A stretch of 8,477 nt of DNA. Source: a bacterium. Lineage in GTDB: Bacteria > Thermosulfidibacterota > Thermosulfidibacteria > Thermosulfidibacterales > JALWSI01. The stretch spans positions 1 through 8,477 of the forward strand of contig JALWSI010000043.1 of NCBI GenBank assembly GCA_027080315.1. The letters run 5' to 3'. Both the position numbers and the translations under genes were made by a program. Shown in pieces: positions 3,007 to 8,113 of the stretch. The notes beneath the pieces were generated by a model. The model did no database searches, had not been told where the DNA came from, and saw only the letters and a program-made list of their open reading frames with translations. The stretch's first letter is position 1, and each line of letters starts with the position of its first letter.

Positions 3007-3088
3007 CTCTCTCCTCCTTCACCCGTATTAACTTTGGGGTACCAGGGAGGCTTCTGGTTGCTGTCCAGTGGCGTTTCACAATGAAAAA

Positions 3089-3120
3089 GGGCCATGGACA
3101 GCGTCGCCTGCCCATGGCCC
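3089..3120 (-). terminator. Intrinsic terminator (attenuator) of the aro leader
   Basis: On the minus strand GGGCCATGG pairs perfectly with CCATGGCCC (9-bp, GC-rich; 3112-3120 with 3089-3097). After one mismatch a further 3 bp (CAG/CTG) closes the loop. Five T follow at once (3084-3088). It lies between the leader peptide stop (3139) and the ADH synthase start (3006), so when formed it would block transcription of both enzymes. Confidence 0.9.
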
Positions 3121-3162
3121 CTGGTTTGTGCAGTTCACTCAGGAGCGCCTGATGGGCAGGCG
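3105..3162 (-). promoter_or_regulatory. Antiterminator pairing, 11-bp perfect complement
   Basis: The minus-strand RNA segment CGCCUGCCCAU (3162-3152, leader codons 31-34) is exactly complementary to AUGGGCAGGCG (3115-3105). The second segment overlaps the 5' arm and loop of the terminator, so this pairing and the terminator exclude each other. The first segment begins just after the aromatic codons. A ribosome stalled on them leaves it free to pair; a ribosome that reaches the leader stop covers it. This corresponds to the 2:3 structure of classical trp or phe attenuators. Confidence 0.82.
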
Positions 3163-3252
3163 CCTCCTAAAGTAATACCACCAATAAAACGAGAAGCTAA
3201 GATCCTTCTCGCCCTTGGGGCCTGAATCTGTATGGGTCTTTCTCTCTTCCAT
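3139..3252 (-). CDS. Aromatic-rich leader peptide of the aro operon
   Basis: A 37-codon frame from ATG 3252 to TGA (3141-3139). Residues 20-28 read FSFYWWYYF: three Phe, three Tyr and two Trp in nine codons (3195-3169). The C-terminal tail is basic (RRRLPIRRS). The start has AGGGGG (3257-3262) 4 nt upstream. The peptide probably has no function itself; its translation rate would report charging of tRNA-Phe, tRNA-Tyr and tRNA-Trp. It is followed by a competing hairpin, an antiterminator option and an intrinsic terminator ahead of the ADH synthase gene, whose product pathway ends in these three amino acids. The clustering of aromatic codons in precisely this place is very unlikely by chance. 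Expression has not been shown, but the arrangement makes the call strong. Confidence 0.88.
   Translation of the reverse strand: MEERKTHTDSGPKGEKDLSFSFYWWYYFRRRLPIRRS
3141..3168 (-). promoter_or_regulatory. Leader hairpin competing with the antiterminator
   Basis: Minus-strand AGGAGGCGCCTG and CAGGCGCTCCT pair with a single bulged G and a 5-nt loop CCCAT (11 bp). The 5' arm contains half of the antiterminator segment, so this hairpin frees the terminator to form. It overlaps leader codons 29-37 and the first base of the stop codon, and corresponds to the pause (1:2) hairpin in trp-type attenuators. Confidence 0.75.
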
Positions 3253-3331: not shown

Positions 3332-3351
3332 GGTTGTGGCCACATCTCAAA

Positions 3352-3358
3352 GAGGAGG
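3352..3358 (+). promoter_or_regulatory. Ribosome binding site choosing the TTG start of the DUF89 gene
   Basis: GAGGAGG lies 7 nt before TTG 3366. The upstream in-frame GTG (3336) has no purine-rich site at proper distance. Confidence 0.65.
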
Positions 3359-3365
3359 TGTTGCC

Positions 3366-4211
3366 TTGAGAACCCAGGCGGAGTGTTACCCCTGCTTCTT
3401 GCAGCAGGTTGTAAACACGTTGGAGATGATGGGTGTGGAGCACCAGAGACAGTGCGGAATCCTGAGAGGGGTGATGAAGACCATCCTTAGATGCCCGGAA
3501 GATTGGTCTCCTCCCCAGGTCTCGGCAGAGGTTTACGGGTACATTGCAGAAGAGACGGGAGTGAAGGATCCCTTCCGTGAGAAGAAGGAGGAGAGCAACA
3601 GGATTGCTGCCACCATGATCCCCGTTCTCAAAGAGATGATTGAGAAGAGCGATACCCCTCTTCTTGATGCGGTGAAGGCTGCCATTGCGGGAAACATCAT
3701 TGATTTTGGGGTGAGTCACAGCTTTGAGATTGAGGATAGCAAGGCGATACTCTCATTGCCCTTGGTGGTGAACCACTATCCCTTCTTTGAAGAGGAGATC
3801 AAGGAATCAACCACGGTGCTCTACCTGGCCGACAACGCCGGGGAGATAGGGTTTGACTCAATCTTGATTGAGCAGCTGGTTAAGATGGGCAAAGAGGTCA
3901 CAGTGGCGGTCAGAAGCGCGCCCATAATCAACGATGCCACCTTAGAAGATGCAAGGTTCTTTGGCATAGAGAAGATGGCTAAGCTCATCACCAGCGGCTC
4001 TCGCGCCCCTGGGACTCCCCTCTCTATGGTGACGCCTCAGTTCAGAGCCATCTTTGACCAGGCTCATGTGGTGATCAGCAAAGGACAGGGCAACTTTGAG
4101 ACCTTGGACGATGCCCAAAGGCCCATCTACTTCTTACTCAGGGCCAAGTGCAGGGTGATTGCAGAGCTGCTTGGGGTGGATCTTGGCAGCATACTCTTGA
4201 TAAAAAGGTGA
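3366..4211 (+). CDS. DUF89/ARMT1-family metal-dependent protein (putative damage-control phosphatase)
   Basis: 281 residues from TTG 3366. Family hallmarks: an N-terminal cysteine pair (ECYPCFLQQ, C7 and C10) typical of the prokaryotic subgroup; GNIIDFG (109-115); the metal-site stretch LADNAGEIGFD with D156 and N157; SAPIINDAT (184-192); and SKGQGNFE (238-245). Some DUF89 proteins hydrolyse phosphate from damaged or unwanted phosphometabolites; the substrate here cannot be told. TTG is preferred because GAGGAGG (3352-3358) ends 7 nt before it and the protein then begins like its relatives; GTG at 3336 would add ten unlikely residues. It is the first gene of the plus-strand operon, with gltX 6 nt after its stop. 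It diverges from the aro operon, whose first enzyme uses a deoxyketose phosphate, a possible but unproven link. Confidence 0.85.
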   Translation: MRTQAECYPCFLQQVVNTLEMMGVEHQRQCGILRGVMKTILRCPEDWSPPQVSAEVYGYIAEETGVKDPFREKKEESNRIAATMIPVLKEMIEKSDTPLLDAVKAAIAGNIIDFGVSHSFEIEDSKAILSLPLVVNHYPFFEEEIKESTTVLYLADNAGEIGFDSILIEQLVKMGKEVTVAVRSAPIINDATLEDARFFGIEKMAKLITSGSRAPGTPLSMVTPQFRAIFDQAHVVISKGQGNFETLDDAQRPIYFLLRAKCRVIAELLGVDLGSILLIKR

Positions 4212-6839: not shown

Positions 6840-7289
6840 TTGAGCAGTTTATGGTGGGAGCCTTTTCTCGTTGAAGACTCCCACCTTTGCTCCCTGTGCG
6901 GAGGTCTCTGCTGCCAGGCCCATCCGGGCCTATACCTGGATCCTCTTCAGTTCCTTGAGGCCTTTGACCTTCCCTTCTCGTGGGATCCTGAAGAGGTGTT
7001 GAGGACCCATCGTCTCAAAATGAAGACCTGTATGGGGGTTCCCATCCCCATGCCAGAAAGCACAGAGATGGGGTGCGTCTTCTGGAGCCCCAAAGGGTGC
7101 GTGCTGCCGCGGTCCCAGAGGCCTTTAGGGTGTCTTATGCTGGTGCCTAAGGAAGAGAGCATATTTTGTGGGGAGCCCCGGTGTTCCCTTCCCCCTGAGG
7201 TTAGCTACCTTGAGTGCTTTGAGCGTTGGAGAAGGTACTACAAGAAGGCTGGAATCTGGGAGAGGGTGCTGGGCCTGTTCCCTGCTTAG
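6840..7289 (+). CDS. YkgJ-like cysteine-cluster protein
   Basis: 149 residues from TTG 6840, with GGAGGAGG (6826-6833) 6 nt upstream. Cysteines are arranged as in the YkgJ/CxxCxxCC family, thought to bind zinc or an Fe-S cluster: CSLCGGLCC (17-25) near the N-terminus, then GCVFWSPKGC (78-87) and RPLGC (94-98), with more cysteines at about 110, 115 and 126. The first cluster is CxxCxxxCC, one residue longer than the usual CxxCxxCC. It is the last gene of the plus-strand operon, 15 nt after the M24 gene, and its stop overlaps the stop of mqnD tail to tail. No partner or substrate is evident. Confidence 0.8.
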   Translation: MSSLWWEPFLVEDSHLCSLCGGLCCQAHPGLYLDPLQFLEAFDLPFSWDPEEVLRTHRLKMKTCMGVPIPMPESTEMGCVFWSPKGCVLPRSQRPLGCLMLVPKEESIFCGEPRCSLPPEVSYLECFERWRRYYKKAGIWERVLGLFPA

Positions 7290-8113
7290 TCAAGGAAGGG
7301 GCTATTTTCAATGGGAGGGATTATCTCACGCTCTTGAGCTAAGGCCAATAGCTTTTCTACCGCCCTGCGACCCTTCTCTCCCAACTCCTTGGTGTACTGG
7401 TTCACGTAAAGCTCAATGTGCTGGTTGATCACATCCTCCTCCATCTCCTGGGCGTGCTCTTTGATGAAGGGCCAGAGCTCCTTCCTGTGCTGGTAGGCGT
7501 AGTTTAGACTCTCCGCTATTGCCCTCTCTATCTCTACCAACAACTCCCTTCCCAGCTCTCGCTTAGCGACTATCCCTCCAAGGGGGATGGGAAGCCCTGT
7601 CTCTTCCTCCCACACCTCTCCAAGGTCGGCGAGTTTTACCAGCCCGTGCTGGGGATAGGTGAACCTGCCCTCGTGGATGATCAACCCTGCCTCTACCAGC
7701 CCCTTCTGAACCGCGGGCATGATCTCGTCGTAGCGCATTACAACGAGGTTCTCAATCTTCTCAAAGAAGATCCTCAAAAGCAGGGTTGCCGTTGTGTGAA
7801 GCCCGGGGACTGCGATCTGGCGGAGGTTCTCAAGCTTGGTGTTGGGTTTGGCCACAATGAGCGGGCCGCATCCCTCTCCCATGGCGCCACCAACGTTGAG
7901 CAGAAGGTATGAGTTTAGCACGTAGCTCAAGGTGTGGGATGAGATCTTGCTCACCTCCAGCCTTCTCTCCATAACCATGGAGTTTAGCTCTTCCACGTCT
8001 GCCATAACGGGCTCTACCTCAAAGCCCCTGCCCTTCACCAACCCTTTGGCCAGGGCGCCAAAGATGAAGGTGTCGTTGGGACAGAAAGAGAAACCCAGCT
8101 TTATCCTTCTCAC
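7286..8113 (-). CDS. mqnD: 1,4-dihydroxy-6-naphthoate synthase (MqnD), futalosine menaquinone pathway
   Basis: 275 residues, matching the family length. MqnD converts cyclic de-hypoxanthine futalosine to 1,4-dihydroxy-6-naphthoate. It has a periplasmic-binding-protein-like fold but no signal peptide, so it acts in the cytoplasm. Diagnostic stretches are the N-terminal LGFSFCPNDTFIFGAL (6-21), the ligand-binding SSHTLSYV region (58-65), GCGPLIVAK (81-89), PGLHTTATLL (103-112), IIHEGRFTY (145-153, with H147 at the place of the histidine proposed as catalytic) and the hallmark GLPIPLGGIVAKR (173-185). The related MqnA lacks this combination. The start is GTG 8113 with GGAGG (8120-8124) 6 nt upstream. 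The precursor chorismate comes from the shikimate pathway, whose alternative entry genes are in the same window but in a separate operon. Confidence 0.93.
   Translation of the reverse strand: MRRIKLGFSFCPNDTFIFGALAKGLVKGRGFEVEPVMADVEELNSMVMERRLEVSKISSHTLSYVLNSYLLLNVGGAMGEGCGPLIVAKPNTKLENLRQIAVPGLHTTATLLLRIFFEKIENLVVMRYDEIMPAVQKGLVEAGLIIHEGRFTYPQHGLVKLADLGEVWEEETGLPIPLGGIVAKRELGRELLVEIERAIAESLNYAYQHRKELWPFIKEHAQEMEEDVINQHIELYVNQYTKELGEKGRRAVEKLLALAQEREIIPPIENSPFLD

Follow-up and report, generated by a model that had tools for sequence, protein, structure and literature searches.

We propose that the operon opening aromatic amino acid biosynthesis in a bacterium of the order Thermosulfidibacterales is controlled by a trp-type ribosome-mediated attenuator that monitors tRNA-Phe, tRNA-Tyr and tRNA-Trp charging together, and we put the probability of this reading at roughly nine in ten. 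The stretch analyzed, hereafter the window, comprises 8,477 nucleotides (nt) of contig JALWSI010000043.1 (assembly GCA_027080315.1) and carries on its minus strand the genes for 2-amino-3,7-dideoxy-D-threo-hept-6-ulosonate synthase (ADHS) and 3-dehydroquinate synthase II (DHQS II). An earlier note on this DNA had already interpreted the upstream region as a Phe/Tyr/Trp attenuator, and this interpretation is supported by the conservation of the leader, by an antiterminator and by sister leaders in which the aromatic run consists of Trp codons. The note was right about the reading frame and the terminator, and it missed the antiterminator, the probable leaderless start and a further RNA strand that can capture one arm of the terminator.

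A leader rich in Phe, Tyr and Trp codons precedes the ADHS operon

The leader open reading frame (ORF; positions 3252-3139, minus strand) has 37 codons and reads MEERKTHTDSGPKGEKDLSFSFYWWYYFRRRLPIRRS. Its codons 20-28 (3195-3169, minus strand), TTC TCG TTT TAT TGG TGG TAT TAC TTT, encode FSFYWWYYF and are read directly from the sequence; eight of the nine residues are aromatic. Dinucleotide shuffles of the whole window (n=300) reached at most six aromatic residues in nine codons, and among all ORFs of up to 60 codons on both strands of the window the leader is the only one with more than five. Translation and the shuffle test together confirm the 37-codon minus-strand frame with FSFYWWYYF that the earlier note had described.

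A search for relatives added eight genomes of this order to that of the window, and each contains the ADHS/DHQS II pair. Homologs that had lost both the frame and its aromatic codons would have spoken against attenuation; both are kept, and the small frame rich in Phe, Tyr and Trp codons ahead of a terminator, which the earlier note had expected in relatives, precedes ADHS in eight of the eight other genomes (nine of nine with the window). The aromatic runs of the relatives are YSWFWFYYWW, YRWFWFYF, FWWFWFYY, FSWFWFYY, FNWFWFYYWW, NWIWSFYYF, IYFWSFYF and FFYFWWYYF, and their leaders end 103-128 nt before ADHS, compared with 132 nt in the window. Each of the nine ADHS leaders has the codon run expected of a trp-type attenuator, specifying amino acids that the downstream pathway makes, and Phe, Tyr and Trp are all represented in every one. 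Leader length (24-38 codons), N-terminus and residue order vary, and only the aromatic run and a strand at the end of the leader (strand A, below) are kept.

Across 88 ADHS loci, ORFs with at least seven aromatic residues in nine codons number 27 in the 33.9 kb upstream of ADHS and 14 in 1.48 Mb elsewhere in the same loci, and their density in the 400 nt before ADHS is about 85-fold that of the remaining sequence, although many of these loci are related and the figures do not count independent events. Beyond the order, ADHS leaders followed by terminator-like hairpins occur in deltaproteobacterial metagenome-assembled genomes (NFYFSYYYF, NFYWFYY) and in Desulfonatronum-type genomes (NFYFGFFYFW), and the ADHS upstream regions of Hydrogenothermaceae/Aquificota and of several deltaproteobacterial loci yielded no aromatic leader.

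Sister leaders in the same order carry Trp runs

The order has eleven further leaders that are built alike, lie ahead of trp-type genes and carry Trp runs in place of the mixed run, and the comparisons below cover 20 leaders. Those ahead of trpE read SWWWWR, CWWWH, CWWWWR (twice) and MWWWQ, and in the genome of the window itself GWWWR is followed, at a contig end, by a trpE-like N-terminus, a fragment of 37 residues for which a family scan returned no match. Three leaders (FWWWC, AWWWWQ and AWWWR) lie ahead of a BPD_transp_2 family permease, and two (GWWWQ and GWWWR) head operons in which the gene for a Phenol_MetA_deg-type protein is followed by one for a TrpB-like enzyme. Trp runs at Trp-branch genes and all three aromatic amino acids at the common entry thus provide an internal control for codon specificity. 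A Phe leader was not found before pheA, which comes after tpiA and secG.

The permease loci, L124 (-), L126 (-) and L127 (+), share the same terminator build, and the permease, which is LivH/UrtB-like, is a candidate Trp-regulated transporter. The Phenol_MetA_deg/TrpB-like loci with Trp-run leaders are L128 (-) and L132 (+).

The terminator is predicted to compete with alternative helices

An intrinsic terminator lies between the leader and the first gene (3122-3084, minus strand; stem 3122-3087, T run 3088-3084) and is identified by folding and covariation. Its stem has 15 pairs closed by a 6-nt loop and is followed by five T, and the 91-nt segment 3170-3080 folds 6.2 standard deviations below its own dinucleotide shuffles (z -6.2), which bears out the strong intrinsic terminator with five U that the earlier note had placed ahead of the first gene. 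The nearest upstream gene is divergent (3336-4211, plus strand), so the minus-strand terminator ends no upstream gene on its own strand and serves a transcript that either begins between the two genes or runs antisense to the upstream one.

Five RNA strands, all on the minus strand, make up the proposed switch. Strand A (GCGCCTGCCCAT, 3163-3152) lies within the last leader codons, is complementary to 3115-3105 and would act as the 5' strand of the antiterminator. It has two alternative partners, namely strand B, with which it forms a predicted hairpin of the anti-antiterminator kind (3170-3139; arms 3170-3157 and 3151-3139), or strand C (GGGGCCATGGGCAGGCG, 3121-3105), which doubles as the 5' arm of the terminator. 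Strand D (GCTGTCCATGGC, 3102-3091), the 3' side of the terminator, can pair with C or, as folding and duplex energies indicate, with strand E (GCCACTGGACAGC, 3072-3060), which has a counterpart in all 20 leaders and can capture D while A holds C. The A:C antiterminator therefore excludes the terminator and overlaps the end of the leader.

In the window the cognate A:C duplex has an energy of -32.1 kcal/mol, equaled by none of 200 shuffles, and across the 20 leaders 192 or more of the 200 trials with shuffled C gave a poorer duplex than the cognate strand once three mis-picked rows had been set aside (ADHS_L008, livH_G000 and livH_G007, where automatic terminator picking had taken D:E or the second terminator). 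The D:E duplex of the window (-22.2 kcal/mol) was matched by none of 1000 dinucleotide shuffles, and D:E was stronger than at least 988 of 1000 in each of the 20 leaders. Among eight distinct ADHS leader sequences, 96% of the A:C pairs, 98% of the C:D pairs and 94% of the D:E pairs are kept, with two, three and four pairs, respectively, changed on both sides, and sliding the partner strands by 1-3 columns lowers pairing to 28-51%. Rfam covariance models gave no relevant T-box, riboswitch or known-leader match in the window (E up to 5).

Tandem terminators of identical stem sequence occur upstream of ADHS at L004-L009, L011 and L015 and upstream of trpE at L094-L098, and the window has only the first of the two. 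We also considered whether the GGCCRTGG stem is a general terminator: eight genomes hold 1-13 such hairpins each and the ninth none, and the hairpins inspected were attenuators or unrelated coding or palindromic sites, so that this reading was dropped.

Ribosome position and the proposed mechanism

Since minimum-energy folds of the complete stalled transcript favored the terminator in most leaders, we folded the RNA only as far as the terminator loop, with the front edge of the ribosome assumed to lie 12 nt downstream from where the A-site codon starts. With the ribosome stalled at F20-Y27 of the window leader, 17 bases of C were paired with upstream RNA, compared with 14 at F28 and none at the stop codon. 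This contrast between stalled and terminating ribosomes was seen in all 20 leaders, weakly in the trpE leader of G004, and the regulatory run ends approximately where further ribosome movement would begin to hide A. In this computation, with its assumed footprint, the structure thus depends on the position of the ribosome.

These results suggest the following mechanism. The promoter, which has a consensus -35 box, would start transcription at the leader ATG or next to it. When all three aromatic amino acids are plentiful, the ribosome would reach the leader stop codon and cover A and B, whereupon the nascent RNA would fold the C:D terminator and the operon would be switched off. When any one of them is short, the ribosome would stall within FSFYWWYYF and leave A free to pair with C, while E would capture D; the terminator would not form, and the two genes that open the aromatic route independent of 3-deoxy-D-arabino-heptulosonate 7-phosphate (DAHP) would be transcribed in response to amino acid supply. 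In the relatives, a second terminator near the gene has E as its 5' arm, so D:E pairing would there disable both terminators.

Leader translation is probably leaderless

The putative leader promoter consists of a -35 box, TTGACA (3289-3284, minus strand), and a candidate -10 element, TAACAG (3266-3261, minus strand), 17 nt after it, which is a weak match in the window and fits in position the TATNNN of the relatives. A TTGAC box lies 34-40 nt (mode 36) ahead of the leader start codon in 19 of the 20 leaders; together with the 17-nt spacer, this distance places the start codon at about +1. Most of the 20 leaders lack a Shine-Dalgarno sequence, and the -35 spacing suggests that the leader is probably translated leaderless.

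Alternative explanations

Several observations weigh against the attenuator or parts of it. The whole case is computed from sequence. GGCCRTGGGC is common to the C arms of all leaders, and A is often almost as good a match for C arms of another class. The blocks used for covariation were partly aligned by hand, which leans toward the model, although the double changes themselves are direct. In minimum-energy folds of the full-length RNA, most leaders form the terminator even when the ribosome is stalled, and the model therefore needs the co-transcriptional order of RNA synthesis, as in trp. Finally, AGGGGG precedes the ATG in the window and would permit a Shine-Dalgarno start from an upstream promoter, which makes the window the least clear leaderless case among the 20 leaders.

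Terminators occur without leaders and short ORFs are common, so the hairpin might simply end some other transcript and the aromatic run be accidental; however, the divergent orientation of the upstream gene, an aromatic content of eight in nine that lies beyond 300 shuffles and the retention of frame and codons in nine of nine genomes of the order leave us giving almost no credence to this explanation. We also think it very unlikely that the aromatic residues matter in a functional small protein, be it a microprotein or a ligand-binding arrest peptide like TnaC, instead of through tRNA charging. Leader peptides can act in trans, as described for peTrpL (PMC7298713), and TnaC-type arrest peptides sense free Trp (PMC8429421), yet here length, N-terminus and residue order vary around a conserved aromatic run and strand A, and the trp-type sister leaders merely exchange the run for Trp. 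Control exerted mainly on ADHS translation, with leader translation or downstream hairpins hiding or exposing the ribosome binding site, would be in keeping with the second hairpin of the relatives, which ends beside the Shine-Dalgarno sequence. In the window, however, the Shine-Dalgarno sequence of ADHS (about 3020-3011) follows the terminator at a distance of more than 60 nt and is not part of the conserved helices, and a T run directly follows the terminator, and we regard translational control as improbable.

A more serious alternative concerns strand E alone. Most leaders use E as the 5' arm of the second terminator and have near-identical C and E arms, and the stem motif recurs in several attenuators of one genome; the D:E match could accordingly reflect nothing more than tandem terminators with a common stem sequence, and no functional trap. 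Against this, the match is present and the second terminator absent in the window and in two TrpB-type leaders, which favors a real trap for D, and four D:E pairs have changed on both sides. We consider the by-product explanation a genuine possibility, though not the one that we prefer over capture of D by E.

The operon and its genomic context

The ADHS gene (3006-2215, minus strand; TIGR01949, NF005556) scores 375 bits against TIGR01949, whose cut-off is 299, and the DHQS II gene (2218-1226, minus strand; PF01959, NF002627), the start of which overlaps the ADHS stop, scores 471 bits against its equivalog model, with a cut-off of 392. DAHP synthase family PF01474 has no match in the genomes of the order. 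The PF00793 matches examined there adjoin CTP synthase-like and sugar-phosphate isomerase-like genes, and the two that were scored are both 3-deoxy-D-manno-octulosonate 8-phosphate (KDO8P) synthase. Since PF00793 is represented only by the KDO8P type and PF01474 is absent, the order seems to lack DAHP synthase, and the ADHS operon is probably the sole entry to the aromatic pathway in the order.

The genome of the window contains a second ADHS gene (L135:2963-3826, plus strand; G000, contig C206), 62% identical, which lacks an adjoining DHQS II gene and an aromatic leader and has a response-regulator-like gene as neighbor. A VitK2_biosynth gene of the futalosine-type menaquinone pathway lies on the same contig as the operon (7289-8113 of the window, minus strand). 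That pathway also begins at chorismate, downstream of the controlled operon.

Aromatic-rich upstream ORFs in Methanomicrobiales

At 24 loci of the archaeal Methanomicrobiales, an upstream ORF with 5-13 aromatic residues in its last 18 codons ends 32-74 nt before ADHS. The other two frames hold fewer aromatic codons, and base shuffling reaches the aromatic count in fewer than 5% of trials at 22 of the 24 loci. Among five Methanospirillum loci, the first codon position is the least variable over the last 17 codons (11 differences, compared with 41 and 32 at the other positions), a pattern which suits interchange of Phe and Tyr under translation and which is not clearly seen in the other archaeal groups. 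Several points count against an archaeal sensor: T-rich tracts act in archaeal termination and could mimic part of the aromatic signal, clear start codons are limited to Methanospirillum, and no Trp-rich leader was seen upstream of archaeal trpE. We therefore find it doubtful that the Methanomicrobiales ORF senses charged aromatic tRNAs and that aromatic leader-peptide control of ADHS/DHQS II spans two domains; if it did, archaea would be using a leader peptide for amino acid control, something of which our literature search found no report.

At L063-L087 of this group, the upstream ORFs with Phe/Tyr/Trp-rich ends are found 32-250 nt ahead of the first ADHS gene. Some 35 nt, GGTGRATGYTTTTTCGCC-GTGAATGYTTTTATC, are strongly conserved at L066, L069, L072 and L074-L087; this stretch has two halves that resemble each other, closely follows a TATA-like box, lies about 50-220 nt before ADHS, and is a candidate operator, RNA motif or coding start. 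In many Methanomicrobiales, GDAGGM or a close variant is encoded in frame just before the likely trpE start (L139-L142, L144-L147, L151 and L152).

Discussion

The nearest described analog, likened here by function from its published description, is aroR-aroF of Corynebacterium glutamicum, in which the AroR leader with Phe-Tyr-Phe precedes aroF, encoding a DAHP synthase (Neshat et al., 2014, as described in PMC11802643). Both systems place more than one aromatic residue in a leader ahead of a pathway-opening enzyme, with ribosome-mediated attenuation described there and proposed here; in contrast to the leader described here, the aroR run names no Trp, the enzyme is DAHP synthase and not ADHS/DHQS II, and the organism is unrelated. 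The claim of the earlier note that the system is undescribed consequently holds in part: a multi-aromatic leader at a pathway entry is known, whereas our literature search found none described before ADHS or DHQS II, a weak negative because most subscription papers lay outside the search.

Similar to trpL of Proteobacteria and Actinobacteria (PMC1262725), the ADHS leader combines regulatory codons, mutually exclusive antiterminator and terminator, and a terminator before the first gene, and it differs in its combined Phe, Tyr and Trp sensor, its probable leaderless start, the extra strand E and the second terminator of the relatives. The E. coli pheA and pheST leaders (PMC11802643) likewise have an aromatic run in a short leader followed by a terminator, but read Phe for a branch or synthetase operon, whereas the ADHS leader would read three end products at the common entry. 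The ilvBNC attenuator of C. glutamicum (PMC11857589) has also been discussed as a leaderless leader mRNA, though it concerns branched-chain amino acids in an unrelated organism. A survey from 2010 gives Proteobacteria and Actinobacteria as the only groups in which amino acid leader peptides were known at that time, and adds a case from bacilli (PMC2965389).

The his operon attenuator of enterobacteria is similarly built as a chain, of six strands, along which pairing moves by one. It has His codons and one terminator, whereas here C:D is itself the terminator and E takes part in a second one in most relatives. Taken together, our analysis supports the view that the ADHS leader represents classical trp-type attenuation with a composite sensor, a variant for which our literature search found no earlier description.

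The DAHP-independent aromatic route thereby gains a concrete candidate regulator. One switch would read three end products at the entry to the pathway while sister switches in the same genomes would read Trp at the branch, and the two kinds together offer a naturally occurring test of how specificity depends on codon content. Moreover, the probable leaderless start and a strand that may trap a terminator arm would extend the four-strand textbook model, in an uncultured lineage that lies outside the usual model groups.
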